Origin: Marinitoga litoralis
GTDB lineage: Bacteria; Thermotogota; Thermotogae; Petrotogales; Petrotogaceae
DNA: 64,000 nt
Direction: 5' to 3'
NCBI RefSeq assembly: GCF_016908145.1
Contig: NZ_JAFBDI010000003.1
Span: 1-64,000, forward strand
How positions within the stretch are numbered: position 1 is the first letter of the stretch; the number at the start of each line of letters is the position of its first letter. Below, one piece after another: positions 21,611-30,773 of this stretch. The translations under genes and the position numbers were made by a program. A model generated the notes under the pieces. The model searched no databases. It had not been told where the DNA came from and saw only the letters and a program-made list of their open reading frames with translations.

Positions 21611-22552
21611 TTATCCTCCCAAAATAAATTTTATAGATTCTTCCGAAGGAGAAAAACCGTAATCCAAAAATCTAGAGATTAAAGATTGAACTTTTTTAGG
21701 TTTCCTATTTTTTATATAAAATAATATAGCATATTCATATATTTCTGGTGTAGCATTGTTTTCTAAAGCATTTTCTAATAAATTATTTATTAAATCATAA
21801 TTATTGGTATATTCTAAAATTTTAAGATAATATACAAGTAATTTTGAACTATAATAATGTTTTTTCAATGATTCCTCTATATTCTTTAGAGTTTCTTTGA
21901 TGAAAAGATCTTCTTTATTGATAACTAAAAAACCTGATTTTATATAATAATAAGAATATTTAGCATAATTAACACAATCTTCTAATGAATCAGAATTCTT
22001 TGAATAATAAGAAATTTTTTTAACCAATAAATTTTCCAAGCTTGTTAAAGCTTCAGAAGCATATAAAACGACATCAGGATTTACATCAATATATATAGCA
22101 TTTCTAATTATTTCAATACCTTCAAGGAAATCTATTTTTTCATTTTTAGTGGAATTAAAAACTAATCTAACAACAAATTTTCTTTGTGAAGGATCTCCAT
22201 ATTTTAGCATAATATTAAAAGGAGCTAAGTCAAAGGAGTAATATGAAATTCTTTTTGTTTCTAATAGTTTTCCTTCTTCAAAATCAAATTCTTTATATAA
22301 CGGATGAAATTCTTTGATACTATAATAATGAATAATAGGATAAAAAGGAAATAAAATTAAAGAAACAGTAGATTTGAAAAATGTTGATCCCAATTTTTTT
22401 GTTTCTGAGAACAAGAGTGTATAAGTAAATATAAAATATAATATAAAAAAAATTATTGAAATTGAATATAGTCTAAATAAAAATAAGAATAAACTAACAA
22501 TTCCACATATTAAAGATATTATTGATAATAATAAGATTTTCCGCTTTTCCAT
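21611..22552 (-). CDS. pelE: PelE-like membrane protein, copy 2
   Basis: 313 residues with an N-terminal hydrophobic region (two or three membrane segments, about 5-85) and a helical-repeat cytosolic part. It is a close paralog of the gene immediately upstream: both contain LAPF-I-LKYGDP-QRK-VVRLV, then FL/ID-GIE-IRNAI-ID and PDVVLYAS-ALT-LE, and both end in SPE--IKFILGG. In Pseudomonas, PelE has two membrane segments plus TPRs and joins PelD, PelF and PelG. Spacing is 1 base on both sides. The PelE assignment rests on architecture and position. Confidence 0.75.
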   Translation of the reverse strand: MEKRKILLLSIISLICGIVSLFLFLFRLYSISIIFFILYFIFTYTLLFSETKKLGSTFFKSTVSLILFPFYPIIHYYSIKEFHPLYKEFDFEEGKLLETKRISYYSFDLAPFNIMLKYGDPSQRKFVVRLVFNSTKNEKIDFLEGIEIIRNAIYIDVNPDVVLYASEALTSLENLLVKKISYYSKNSDSLEDCVNYAKYSYYYIKSGFLVINKEDLFIKETLKNIEESLKKHYYSSKLLVYYLKILEYTNNYDLINNLLENALENNATPEIYEYAILFYIKNRKPKKVQSLISRFLDYGFSPSEESIKFILGG

Positions 22553-22553
22553 A

Positions 22554-23495
22554 TTACCCCCCTAGAATAAATTTAATCGCGTCATTTTCGGGTGAAAAAC
22601 CAAGATCCATATATAATGAAACAAGCTCCTGAACAACCTTGGGTTTTCTTTTTTTTATATAATAAAAAATAGCGTACTCTAATATTTTTTGATGTTTAAA
22701 GGTATTTAATTTTTCTCTAAGCATATTTTCTAACTCTGCATATTCATTTAATAATTCCATTATTTTAAATGTATAAAATATTAAATCTGGACTCTCTGGA
22801 AATGTTTCAATAGAGGGTCTTAAAATAATAAGAGCTTGCCAAAGGATTTCTTTTTCATGTTCTCCAGCTAAAAATCCGGACTTGGCATAGTAGTATGAAT
22901 ATTTTCCAAAGTTTATATAATCTTCTAGCGAATTTAAATTTTTCATATAATATGAAATTGATGATATTAAATATTTTTCTAAATTAGTTAATGCATCTGA
23001 TGCGTATAAAACAACATCTGGATGTGAGTCAATTTTTATAGCATTTCTAATAAGCTCTATTCCGTCAATAAAATCGACTTTATTTTCAAGAATGGAATTG
23101 TAAACTAATCTAACAACATATTTTCTTTGTTGTGGATCACCATATTTTAAGATAATATAAAAAGGTGCTAAATCCACAGATGAGAATGAAATATTTCCTG
23201 TTATGTCTAATTTACCTTCTTCAAAGTCAATAGGAGAATATAAAGGTTTTATTTTTTTTATATGAAAAAATAGGATTAATGGGAAATACGGAAAAAGTAA
23301 AATAGACATAAATAATTCTAAAATAAATAATTTTTTTTGCTTCTTATCTTTTAAAATAATTATTATATTAAATAATATATACAACACTAGAAAAATAATT
23401 CCCCAAGATATTAAATTTATTAAAAATAAAATTATACTTACGAATCCAAAAATTGTAGAAAATATGGATAGCACTTCAAACAATCTTTTATACAT
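22554..23495 (-). CDS. pelE: PelE-like membrane protein, copy 1
   Basis: 313 residues, same length and layout as the following paralog: hydrophobic N terminus, then conserved block LKYGDPQQRKYVVRLV, and TPR/HEAT-like helices to the end. It overlaps the pelD stop by 8 bases and has a GGAGG ribosome site within pelD. Equal lengths and matching sequences over the whole protein show a tandem duplication rather than distant relation. The two copies may form a hetero-oligomer with PelD. Confidence 0.77.
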   Translation of the reverse strand: MYKRLFEVLSIFSTIFGFVSIILFLINLISWGIIFLVLYILFNIIIILKDKKQKKLFILELFMSILLFPYFPLILFFHIKKIKPLYSPIDFEEGKLDITGNISFSSVDLAPFYIILKYGDPQQRKYVVRLVYNSILENKVDFIDGIELIRNAIKIDSHPDVVLYASDALTNLEKYLISSISYYMKNLNSLEDYINFGKYSYYYAKSGFLAGEHEKEILWQALIILRPSIETFPESPDLIFYTFKIMELLNEYAELENMLREKLNTFKHQKILEYAIFYYIKKRKPKVVQELVSLYMDLGFSPENDAIKFILGG

Positions 23496-26837: not shown

Positions 26838-27677
26838 ATGAAAATAGGATTAGTGACAGATAATACATGTAATTTACCTTTAGAATTTTTAGAAAAAAAT
26901 GATATAGGAGTAGCTTCATTATACATTTTAAGAGATGGAAATCATATAAAAGCTGTAGATCTTTGTCCAACTACATTTTACGAAGAATTAAAGGTAGGGT
27001 CATATATTCCATTAACTTCACAACCATCGGTAAAAGACTTTGAAGAAGTATATAGAGAGATGCTAAAAAAATATGATTATTTAATAACAGTGACAATTTC
27101 TGAAAAGTTGAGCGGTACATTAAATTCAGCCAGATTGGCTTCAACAATGGTGGATGAAAAAAGAATATTTGTTGTTGATTCAAAATTAACAAGTTTTGGA
27201 TTAGGTTTTTTATTATTAGAATTAAAAGAGAGAATTGAAAGTAATAATTACTCATTAGAACAATTAATAGAATATGCAAAAAACTTTTATAATACCATAA
27301 AAATTATATTTACCGTAACTAATTTAGATTATTTATATAAAGGTGGAAGAATTGGGAAAGCAAAAGCTTTGATGGGTGGATTATTAAATATGAAACCATT
27401 ACTATCTTTAGTGGATGGTGAAATAATTCCAGTAAAAAGCGTTAGAGGATATAATAAAATGATAAAAGAATTAGTAAATTTTTCTTTAGAAAGAATAGAT
27501 ACTTTGAAATTAAAAAGGACAGCAATTATTCATACAGGTAACTTAAAGTATGGAACAATGATAATAGATGAATTAAATAATAGAGGAATTAAAGAAGATA
27601 CATATGCATTATTAGATCCAGTTATAGGTACACATTTAGGACCTGATGCTATAGGAGTGATTACTCAATGGGAATAG
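26838..27677 (+). CDS. DegV-family fatty acid-binding protein (fatty acid operon copy)
   Basis: 279-residue homolog of the protein at 10250. It begins KIGLVTDNTCNLP, has SQPSVKDFEEV, ISEKLSGTLNSARLA, NLDYLYKGGRIGKAKALMGG and ends with GTHLGPDAIG, the DegV motifs. FakB proteins bind free fatty acids for phosphorylation; placement between fabF and fabZ supports a lipid role more strongly than for the first copy. It overlaps fabZ by 10 bases. Confidence 0.9.
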   Translation: MKIGLVTDNTCNLPLEFLEKNDIGVASLYILRDGNHIKAVDLCPTTFYEELKVGSYIPLTSQPSVKDFEEVYREMLKKYDYLITVTISEKLSGTLNSARLASTMVDEKRIFVVDSKLTSFGLGFLLLELKERIESNNYSLEQLIEYAKNFYNTIKIIFTVTNLDYLYKGGRIGKAKALMGGLLNMKPLLSLVDGEIIPVKSVRGYNKMIKELVNFSLERIDTLKLKRTAIIHTGNLKYGTMIIDELNNRGIKEDTYALLDPVIGTHLGPDAIGVITQWE

Positions 27678-28102
27678 AAGGAATGAATATAGATGAAATA
27701 ATGAAAATATTACCTCACAGATATCCATTCTTGCTAGTAGATGGCGTATTAGAAATTCAAGAAAAAAAAATTATTGCATATAAAAATGTTAGTATAAATG
27801 ACCCTTATTTTCAAGGTCATTTTCCCGATTATCCAATTATGCCAGGTGTATTAATAATTGAAGGATTAGCACAAACTGCTGGAATTCTTTTAATGAAAGA
27901 CTTAAAAAAAGATTCAATTCCATTATTTTTGGGAATAGATAAAGCAAGATTTAAAAAGGAAGTCAGGCCAGGAGATACTTTAATATATGATATAGAATTA
28001 CTACAAGAAAAAATGGGAATGTATAAAGTTAAAGGAATAGCTAAGGTGGAAAGCAAAGTAGTTGCGAGTGCAGAATTAATGGTTGGAATAAAGAGGGGAT
28101 AA
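27668..28102 (+). CDS. fabZ: 3-hydroxyacyl-[ACP] dehydratase
   Basis: Dehydrates 3-hydroxyacyl-ACP in each elongation cycle. 144 residues with LPHRYPFLLVD near the start and the catalytic His/Glu segment GHFPDYPIMPGVLIIE. I keep the start at 27668 because GGAGTGA lies 8 bases upstream, inside degV; the alternative ATG at 27683 has its purine run too close. No FabA-type isomerase is visible, so unsaturated fatty acids, if made, need another route. Confidence 0.94.
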   Translation: MGIEGMNIDEIMKILPHRYPFLLVDGVLEIQEKKIIAYKNVSINDPYFQGHFPDYPIMPGVLIIEGLAQTAGILLMKDLKKDSIPLFLGIDKARFKKEVRPGDTLIYDIELLQEKMGMYKVKGIAKVESKVVASAELMVGIKRG

Positions 28103-28103
28103 A

Positions 28104-28985
28104 ATGTATATTACTCAAATAAATGTATATATTCCAGAAAATAAATTGGATAATAAAATATTATCCAAAAAATTCAATGTTTCTGAAGATTGGATATTAA
28201 AAAGAACTGGAATAAAAAATAGATACATTTCTAATATTGATATTTTTCAAATGGGCTTAAAAGCTGCTGAGAAATTAAATTTAGAAGATGTTGACACAAT
28301 TCTTTTTGTTTCATCTATAGGAGCTCATTATGTACCTTATTATGTCAGAACATATGAAAAATTAAATATTGATAAATTAAGATATGGAATAGATGTATCT
28401 AATGGTTTTGTAGGCTTTGTGACTTCACTGCATATAGCTGATGTTATGTTTAGGGAAAAAATTGCAAATAAAATATTAATAATAGTATCAGAAAAATTGT
28501 CAGAGCTTGTAGATGAAGAAGATATTAATACATCAATATTATTTTCTGATGCTGCAGTTGCAATGGTTTTGGAAAATAATGATAATTGTGTTTGCGATCA
28601 TAGAGTAATATATGATAGTGAATATTTAGATGCATTAAATGTTAATGATAATAAAAAAATTATAATGAATGGAAAAAGAGTATACAAGTTTGCCGTTAGT
28701 AACATGAAAAAAATGATAAAAGATTACTTAAAAGACTACGAAGAAAAAATAATTGTTCCACATCAAGCTAATAAGAGAATATTAGAAAGTGTGAAAAATA
28801 ATTTTAATAATATGGAGTTTTTAGATATTATAGAAGATTTTGGAAATACAGGAGCAGCAAGTATCCCTTTGACATTATATAAAATATACGGAAATACAAA
28901 AATAGATTTAAAAAAACACTTATTAATATCTGTAGGTGGAGGAATGACAACATCAGGTATTACCTGGAGGTGCAATAATGAATAG
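28104..28985 (+). CDS. FabH-like ketoacyl-ACP synthase III lacking the catalytic cysteine
   Basis: 293 residues, somewhat shorter than the usual 310-330. The fold is KAS III: SEDWILKRTGIKNRY near the N terminus, catalytic His in VPHQANKRIL (H220), catalytic Asn in DFGNTGAASIPL (N248), and the C-terminal GGGMTTSG. The block that should hold the nucleophilic Cys reads DVSNGFVGFV, with Phe 102 (TTT, 28407-28409) where Cys is expected. A Cys would differ by one base (TGT). It therefore cannot form the acyl-enzyme used to start fatty acid synthesis. It may decarboxylate malonyl-ACP to acetyl-ACP, be structural, or reflect a base error. It overlaps fabK by 8 bases. Confidence 0.85.
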   Translation: MYITQINVYIPENKLDNKILSKKFNVSEDWILKRTGIKNRYISNIDIFQMGLKAAEKLNLEDVDTILFVSSIGAHYVPYYVRTYEKLNIDKLRYGIDVSNGFVGFVTSLHIADVMFREKIANKILIIVSEKLSELVDEEDINTSILFSDAAVAMVLENNDNCVCDHRVIYDSEYLDALNVNDNKKIIMNGKRVYKFAVSNMKKMIKDYLKDYEEKIIVPHQANKRILESVKNNFNNMEFLDIIEDFGNTGAASIPLTLYKIYGNTKIDLKKHLLISVGGGMTTSGITWRCNNE

Positions 28986-29889
28986 AGTTACACAATTGCT
29001 TGGTATTAAATATCCTATTTTAGAAGGTGGAATGGCTTGGGTTGGCACTCCAAAATTAGCTGCTGCAGTTTCTGAAGCAGGAGGATTAGGCACAATAGGT
29101 GCAGGTAGTATGACACCAGAGATTTTAAAAGATGCTATAAAAACTATAAAAGATTTTACTAATAAACCGTTTGCAGTAAATATAATATTGGTAAATCCCT
29201 ATGCTGATCAATTAGTTGAAATAGTCAAAGAAGAAAATGTCCCTATAGTTATATTTGGAGCAGGTAATCCTGGGAAATATATACCTTCATTAAAAGAAAC
29301 AAATATAAAAGTATTAGCTGTTGTATCTTCAGAAAATTTAGCAATTAGACTTGAAAAAATAGGAGTTGATGCAATTATTGGTGAAGGTATGGAATGTGGA
29401 GGCCATATTGGAGATGTCTCAACAATGGTGTTAATACCAAAACTAGTTGATGTATTAAATGTTCCTGTAATTGCAGCAGGTGGAATAGCAGATATAAGAG
29501 GTATGAAAGCTGCATTTGAATTAGGTGCTGAAGGAATTCAAATGGGAACTAGATTTATAGCAACTTATGAATGTGAAGCGCATGAAAATTATAAGAATCT
29601 AATATTAAAAGCTGGAATAAGAGATGCAATAGTTACAGGAGCTGCTATTGGGCATCCTGCAAGAGTGATAAAGACTAAATTTGCAAAAAAAATAAAAAGT
29701 TTAGAATTACAGTCTCCAGAAGAAGCGGAAGAAATGTTAGTTGGTAGTTTAAAAAATGCATTTTTATATGGAGATTTAGATAATGGATCGTTTATGGCAG
29801 GTCAAAGTGCAGGTTTAATAAATGAAATTAAAAGTGTAAAAGAAATTATTGAAGAGTTTGGAAAAGAAATAAGTGAGGTGTTAAAATGA
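28978..29889 (+). CDS. fabK: enoyl-[ACP] reductase II (flavoprotein)
   Basis: NAD(P)H/FMN-dependent reductase completing the elongation cycle; 303 residues of the nitronate monooxygenase/FabK TIM-barrel family. It shows GGMAWVGTPKLAAAVSEAGG at the N terminus, GEGMECGGHIGD mid-protein, PVIAAGGIAD and GAEGIQMGTRF for FMN binding. Position inside the fab operon decides FabK over a nitronate monooxygenase. A good GGAGGTG precedes the ATG. It overlaps fabD by 4 bases. Confidence 0.93.
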   Translation: MNRVTQLLGIKYPILEGGMAWVGTPKLAAAVSEAGGLGTIGAGSMTPEILKDAIKTIKDFTNKPFAVNIILVNPYADQLVEIVKEENVPIVIFGAGNPGKYIPSLKETNIKVLAVVSSENLAIRLEKIGVDAIIGEGMECGGHIGDVSTMVLIPKLVDVLNVPVIAAGGIADIRGMKAAFELGAEGIQMGTRFIATYECEAHENYKNLILKAGIRDAIVTGAAIGHPARVIKTKFAKKIKSLELQSPEEAEEMLVGSLKNAFLYGDLDNGSFMAGQSAGLINEIKSVKEIIEEFGKEISEVLK

Positions 29890-30773
29890 TTGCCTTTGTA
29901 TTTCCTGGACAAGGATCACAAAAATTAGGTATGGGAAAAGAAATTTTAGATAAGTATCCTGAATATAATGAATATTTAGATAAAGCATCAAAGGTTATAA
30001 ATGTTGATCTGAAATCAATTATTTTTGGAGACGATGAAAAAATATTAACATTGACTGAAAATGCTCAACCAGCGTTATTAAGTATTTCATATATTATATA
30101 TTTGTATGCAACAGAAAAATTAAATATACATCCTGATATTGTAGCAGGTCATTCATTAGGTGAGTGGACAGCTTTAGTTGCTTCAGATGTAATTTCTTTT
30201 GAAGAAGGAGTACAATTAGTTAGATTAAGAGGAAAATACATGAGTGAAGCATGCCCTCCAGGTGTAGGAAGTATGGGAGCGGTAATTGGATTGGATATTA
30301 ATCGAGTAAGAGAATTAATAGATAAATTTGAGAATATCAATATAGCTAATCATAATGCTTTGGATCAAATAGTTATTAGTGGAGATAAGAAAGAAGTAGT
30401 TGAGGCATTGGAATTATTAAAAGAAAATGGAGCAAAAAAAGTAGTAGAGTTGAATGTTAGCGGCCCTTTCCATTCAAAATTAATAAAACAAGCTCAAGAA
30501 AAGTTAGCAGAAAATTTAAAAGACACTGAATTTAATAAACCAAAATATAATCTTATTCAAAATTACACAGGTGATGTGGAAAATGACCCTAAAAAGATAA
30601 AAGAAAACATAATTAATCAAATTACAGGAACAGTAAGGTGGGTAGATAGTGTTAAAAAGATGAAAGAATTAGGAGTTACAGAAGTATATGAAGTAGGGCC
30701 AGGAAAGGTATTAACAGGTTTGGTAAAAAGAATAGATAAAAGTTTAAATCCAAAAAGTATTTTGAGTATATAA
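29886..30773 (+). CDS. fabD: malonyl-CoA:ACP transacylase
   Basis: Transfers malonyl from CoA to ACP. 295 residues: FVFPGQGSQKLGMG at the N terminus, nucleophile Ser 90 in GHSLGEW, and the catalytic His in NVSGPFHSKL. Last gene of the operon, followed by a strong terminator. acpP, fabG and the acetyl-CoA carboxylase genes are not in this window. Confidence 0.95.
   Translation: MIAFVFPGQGSQKLGMGKEILDKYPEYNEYLDKASKVINVDLKSIIFGDDEKILTLTENAQPALLSISYIIYLYATEKLNIHPDIVAGHSLGEWTALVASDVISFEEGVQLVRLRGKYMSEACPPGVGSMGAVIGLDINRVRELIDKFENINIANHNALDQIVISGDKKEVVEALELLKENGAKKVVELNVSGPFHSKLIKQAQEKLAENLKDTEFNKPKYNLIQNYTGDVENDPKKIKENIINQITGTVRWVDSVKKMKELGVTEVYEVGPGKVLTGLVKRIDKSLNPKSILSI

Follow-up and report, generated by a model that had tools for sequence, protein, structure and literature searches.

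Can a member of the FabH family that has lost its catalytic cysteine still serve the initiation of fatty acid synthesis? The question is raised by a gene in the window, by which we mean the whole 64,000-nucleotide stretch of Marinitoga litoralis DNA that was analyzed. The original prediction placed a FabH homolog within a fatty acid operon here, and the gene order fabF-degV-fabZ-fabH-fabK-fabD, with fabH fitted tightly between fabZ and fabK, confirms it (Table 1). A DegV-family gene, named from the sequence of its product, separates fabF from fabZ both here and in many relatives; the members of this family are fatty acid binders.

Table 1. Features of the fab operon, active-site codons of the FabH homolog, and the second KAS III gene of the genome. 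Positions are those of the window unless a contig is named.
Feature	Position	Strand	Basis or remark
Phe-type FabH (KAS III homolog without catalytic Cys), 293 aa	28104..28985	+	ORF translation, Pfam, alignment to solved FabHs
fabF (KAS II), Cys and both His intact; sole FabF of the genome	25599..26825	+	
DegV-family gene within the fab operon	26838..27677	+	named from its sequence
fabZ	27668..28102	+	stop 1 base ahead of the fabH start
fabK (enoyl-ACP reductase II)	28978..29889	+	8-base overlap with the fabH end
fabD (malonyl-CoA:ACP transacylase)	29886..30773	+	GHSLGE motif
Phe102, codon TTT; place of catalytic Cys112 (E. coli numbering)	28407..28409	+	alignment
His220, codon CAT; E. coli His244; His in 12/12 Phe-types	28761..28763	+	alignment
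Asn248, codon AAT; E. coli Asn274; Asn in 12/12 Phe-types	28845..28847	+	alignment
Val277, codon GTA; E. coli Phe304 position; Val in 12/12 Phe-types	28932..28934	+	alignment
Tyr76, on the E. coli Phe87 loop; Tyr-x-Pro in 12/12 Phe-types, in 0 Cys-types	28329..28331	+	alignment
Ile141; E. coli Arg151 place; Ile, Val or Pro across all Phe-types	28524..28526	+	alignment
Second KAS III, of family PRK06840, with its Cys and with His in place of Asn274	G000:C39, L060:6514-7527	-	NCBIfam

The protein passes both Pfam models of the KAS III fold, ACP_syn_III (55.7 bits; gathering threshold 24) and ACP_syn_III_C (53 bits; threshold 26.6), and among solved proteins it comes closest to FabHs, with Aquifex 2ebd as the best match (E = 8e-35). 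It stays below the curated cut-offs of TIGR00747 (162.4 versus 292.1) and NF006829 (176.5 versus 249); most Cys-type FabHs of the Thermotogota likewise fall under the TIGR00747 cut-off. With FabH/KAS III (TIGR00747, PRK09352), the protein shares the Pfam fold family, the sequence match to solved FabHs, the setting in a fab operon and the positions His244, Asn274, Trp32, Arg36 and Thr37 (E. coli numbering). On the other hand, it carries Phe for Cys and Val at position 304, has no Arg151, and is about 25 residues shorter than the E. coli FabH. The reference sequences were FabH, FabF, FabG and ACP of E. coli, together with Aquifex, Bacillus-type, Staphylococcus and Neisseria-type sequences that were retrieved by searches.

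Translation and alignment bore out the predicted substitution. The motif DVSNGFVGF, which corresponds to D...CxGF in FabHs, aligns with DISAACSGF of Aquifex 2ebd and places Phe102 on the catalytic Cys, as do the alignments to other solved FabHs and to Cys112 of the E. coli enzyme. His220 and Asn248, which had been predicted to be intact, align with His244 and Asn274, leaving a Cys-His-Asn triad in which only the Cys is replaced. The Phe304 position is occupied by Tyr in the Thermotogota Cys-types and by Phe, Met or Ile in sequences from outside. Trp32, Arg36, Thr37, Met207, Gly209, His244, Asn247 and Asn274 (E. coli numbering) are invariant in the 12 Phe-types, and the Lys214 and Arg249 positions on the ACP side always hold Lys or Arg. 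The Tyr on the Phe87 loop was judged from alignments that keep the f11 sequences in register (these are shifted on the loop in one other alignment; the labels f1–f11 for families are those of the search tool). Arg151, a CoA contact in E. coli, is also gone from some Thermotogota Cys-types, so its loss is not specific to the Phe-types. Because the Phe co-occurs with the Phe304-to-Val change, the Phe87-loop Tyr and the loss of Arg151, the site looks, from these alignments, remodelled rather than decayed. An AlphaFold2 model built from two sequences reached a pLDDT of 37, which is too poor to place Phe102.

Could the Phe simply be a base error, with TGT read as TTT? The two codons are one base apart. 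Phe stands at this place in each of the 12 orthologs that the phylum yielded, from three families, and all occupy the same operon position between fabZ and fabK. The codon is TTT in each of the genus's seven genomes and in one genome of another genus of the family (G018), and among the more distant orthologs of f4 (G022) and f11 (G100, G101 and G102), which are 30–44% identical to the Marinitoga protein, it is TTC in three of the four and TTT in one. The 11 other Phe-types share 30–85% identity with the Marinitoga protein and keep the His, the Asn and the surrounding residues. Since the Phe is conserved in 12 genomes, and partly as TTC in other families, a misread TGT is untenable, its probability being close to nil, and the possibility that all close orthologs carry Cys proved false. 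A scan of genome contigs with the Marinitoga protein gave matches from Marinitoga only, and the one near relative with a name was Marinitoga lauensis (80% identity over the protein), classified in the Petrotogaceae, Petrotogales, Thermotogota; the FabHs among the plasmid records listed were all less than 35% identical to it.

Furthermore, each of the seven genomes in the genus carries the gene at full length. Within the genus, dN/dS was 0.10–0.19 for fabH, 0.05–0.12 for fabF and fabK, and 0.07–0.20 for fabD and fabZ, values that are rough, as dS is near saturation in some pairs. By these ratios, which for fabH resemble those of fabD and fabZ, the Phe-type fabH is under purifying selection.

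How is this variant distributed? A Phe-type occurs in 12 of 103 Thermotogota genomes and a Cys-type in 18; the remaining 73, some of them incomplete, show neither. A Phe-type profile scored the 12 Phe-types at 375–517 bits and the Cys-types at 216 bits or less, a gap that arises partly by construction since the Phe-types themselves built the profile; it found no further member across the 103 genomes. The Cys-type FabHs (f2, f5 and f7) are the nearest in sequence and share the gene order fabH-fabK-fabD, but they keep the Cys, have Tyr at 304, and belong to separate operon lineages. For Kosmotoga/Kosmotogales, lateral acquisition of the Cys-FabH operon has been reported (PMC5674127). No fabH is present, and fabZ directly adjoins fabK, in the majority of the family's remaining genera and also in other families. 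Similarly, no FabH was found in many near-complete Thermotogota genomes (most f1 genera, f8, f9 and f10), in which FabF, FabZ, FabK and FabD are present, and the control genome of Thermotoga maritima gave no response to the FabH model.

In a FabH tree, the Phe-types stood on one side of a branch with support of 92/89, or 81/79 without the Cys column, to be read with caution since two long branches meet at this point, and a long stem branch led to the Phe-types of the Petrotogaceae. A tree of FabF, FabZ, FabK and FabD gave a clearer picture: the operons with Phe-FabH and those without fabH lay on one side of a 100/100 branch, with all Cys-FabH operons (f2, f5 and f7) outside this group; one fabH-less f2 genome fell among the Cys-FabH operons. 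As the Phe-FabH and fabH-less operons form a single group in this tree, the Cys was probably lost once, in the ancestor of the operon lineage, and the gene was then lost several times. Three f6 genomes (G025, G026 and G027; L091–L096) have two FabF genes each, in separate clusters with FabK, FabZ or ACP; both FabFs keep the Cys, and the fab clusters contain no FabH. In one further genome, fabF is split by stops (G007:C12:265735-266953, minus strand), probably through an assembly error.

Does another enzyme in M. litoralis provide the missing cysteine? The supposition that the genome lacks a true FabH held, as searches of the 99.89% complete genome with the protein itself and with TIGR00747 found no second FabH and no Cys-type FabH. 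A heterodimer with a Cys-bearing FabH was considered and dropped, the genome offering no partner. TIGR00747 picked up only a divergent KAS III and, as a partial match, the adjoining thiolase-like gene. The divergent KAS III scored 485.6 with PRK06840 (3-oxoacyl-ACP synthase; cut-off 315), and with this NCBIfam assignment we dropped a motif-based reading of it as HMG-CoA synthase. The genes around it appear to encode a thiolase, a CoA-transferase-like protein and an ABC transporter of the branched-chain amino acid type. Because this cluster looks catabolic and the protein has His where FabH has Asn274, it is not, by these marks, a stand-in for FabH, though it may yet play some part. It is also missing from two FabH-less relatives (G003 and G012).

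MadA/MadB, recognized by the YiiD_C hot-dog domain PF09500, had no match over the cut-off in any genome of the family, and a Pfam scan of the Phe-FabH gave the two KAS III domains only and no PF09500. The single FabF retains its Cys and both His. The genome encodes two stand-alone acyl carrier proteins, besides which a PP-binding carrier domain lies inside a 1013-aa open frame (G000:C10:15827-16027, minus strand). We also observed, in two genomes from different families, a single reading frame that joins a permease domain of the branched-chain amino acid type to an alpha/beta hydrolase (L060:3-1643, minus strand, by translation; L049:2295-3992, plus strand, by Pfam). Adjoining an alpha/beta hydrolase in a transporter gene cluster is a member of another KAS III-like family (L049:3989-4978, plus strand), with the motif FDVNASCANGALL, the Cys kept, and the FabH His and Asn absent; this family has relatives in f4, f8, f9, f10 and f11.

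What, then, might the Phe-type protein do? In KAS III, the His and Asn are the residues used on malonyl-ACP, and KAS enzymes in which the Cys is changed to Gln (KSQ) act as malonyl decarboxylases. We propose, with our confidence evenly balanced, that the protein is a FabH-derived malonyl-ACP decarboxylase that would supply acetyl-ACP to FabF. Without the Cys, the acyl-enzyme could no longer form, and the normal ping-pong condensation of acetyl-CoA with malonyl-ACP would therefore be impossible. Malonyl-ACP would still be bound, with His220 and Asn248 holding the thioester oxygen, and would be decarboxylated to acetyl-ACP, which the single FabF would then extend. The pocket that once held the acyl group would be filled by Phe102 together with Val277 and the altered Phe87 loop. 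The reaction, the filling of the pocket and the use of acetyl-ACP by the Marinitoga FabF are the parts of this scheme that we infer; the retained His and Asn, the largely retained ACP-side residues, the purifying selection and the operon position are consistent with it. Wild-type E. coli FabH decarboxylates malonyl-CoA in the absence of acetyl-CoA (PMC9979976), and with this precedent and the conserved His and Asn, decarboxylation is the most economical reading. FabB and FabF can start chains with acetyl-ACP, the product of malonyl-ACP decarboxylase, as shown for the E. coli FabB and the Streptococcus pneumoniae FabF, and the authors of that work suggest that outside the Proteobacteria the acetyl-ACP perhaps comes from a different gene family (PMC8666670).

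Several observations speak against a decarboxylase. The replacement known from natural decarboxylating enzymes is Gln, with its amide, whereas the apolar Phe could obstruct binding of malonyl. The FabH-less relatives keep the rest of the operon and presumably manage with FabF, so the step is not strictly needed, and a gene that was lost repeatedly may well have had a minor role. FabF presumably starts chains alone in the close relatives and in Thermotoga maritima, none of which has a FabH; in Enterococcus lacking FabH, FabF has been proposed to make its own acetyl-ACP (PMC13372179). As operons of the same type exist without fabH, acetyl-ACP could conceivably come from elsewhere than the Phe-FabH, which may have an auxiliary function or some other task that depends on ACP. 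Either FabF in the relatives makes acetyl-ACP and the Phe-FabH adds to it, or the Phe-FabH does something else.

Could it be a KAS III without catalytic activity that serves the fatty acid synthase as a regulator or scaffold by binding ACP, acyl-ACP or other Fab enzymes, with FabF starting chains by side reactions? The loss of both Cys and Arg151, the relatives that need no FabH, the long stem branch to the Petrotogaceae Phe-types, and the view that in the absence of FabH acetyl-ACP probably comes from FabF-type enzymes (PMC13372179) all suit this reading. However, a scaffold would not need the His, the Asn and their surroundings to stay invariant over such deep divergence, and we consider it rather unlikely. 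A different Cys-free reaction on ACP or CoA substrates, such as direct condensation, acyl transfer or thioester hydrolysis, would agree with the remodelled acyl pocket common to all Phe-types (Val277, Tyr76 and Phe102) and with the retained Trp32, Arg36 and Thr37 positions. The lost Arg151 contact argues against CoA substrates, although some Cys-types of the phylum have lost it too, and no gene in the context indicates another product; this reading is unlikely. Finally, the gene could be a functionless remnant near its loss, as might be suggested by the lack of a fabH between fabZ and fabK in the majority of the family's remaining genera and also in other families, and by the several losses that the operon tree implies. 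The low dN/dS, the intact length in every genome of the genus, and the invariance of the Phe, His and Asn in three families make this very improbable for M. litoralis.

Returning to decarboxylation, we suggest, a little more tentatively than for the activity itself, a history in which replacement of Cys by Phe and rebuilding of the pocket turned FabH into a dedicated malonyl-ACP decarboxylase throughout the lineage, which was then lost repeatedly as FabF became self-starting. Cys-less ketosynthases that decarboxylate malonyl-ACP are known from polyketide synthases, where KSQ domains and chain length factors share with the Marinitoga protein a ketosynthase fold with the Cys replaced. There, decarboxylation supplies the acetyl starter, whereas for the Marinitoga protein this is only proposed; moreover, the polyketide proteins are of the KAS I/II type with Gln, and the Marinitoga protein has KAS III domains with Phe and belongs to primary fatty acid synthesis. 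Among such decarboxylating ketosynthases, we know of none in primary fatty acid synthesis that is of the KAS III type and has Phe, and our literature search found no paper on a Phe-type FabH, which is weak evidence given that subscription papers lay mostly outside that search. MadA/MadB carry out the reaction proposed here, to the same end of providing FabF with acetyl-ACP, but have a hot-dog fold, occur in Proteobacteria and are unrelated in sequence.

If the proposed activity is correct, the Phe-type would be the equivalent, among KAS III proteins, of the polyketide KSQ and, outside the Proteobacteria, of MadA/MadB. Initiation of fatty acid synthesis without FabH outside the Proteobacteria is an open question (PMC8666670, PMC13372179), and the Thermotogota, with Cys-FabH, Phe-FabH or no FabH in like operons, offer a natural series. 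Phe-type proteins should not be annotated as FabH by name. Elsewhere in the window, near a glycosyltransferase-like gene, two adjacent 313-aa proteins (21611-22552 and 22554-23495, minus strand) resemble tandem paralogs bearing N-terminal membrane segments.
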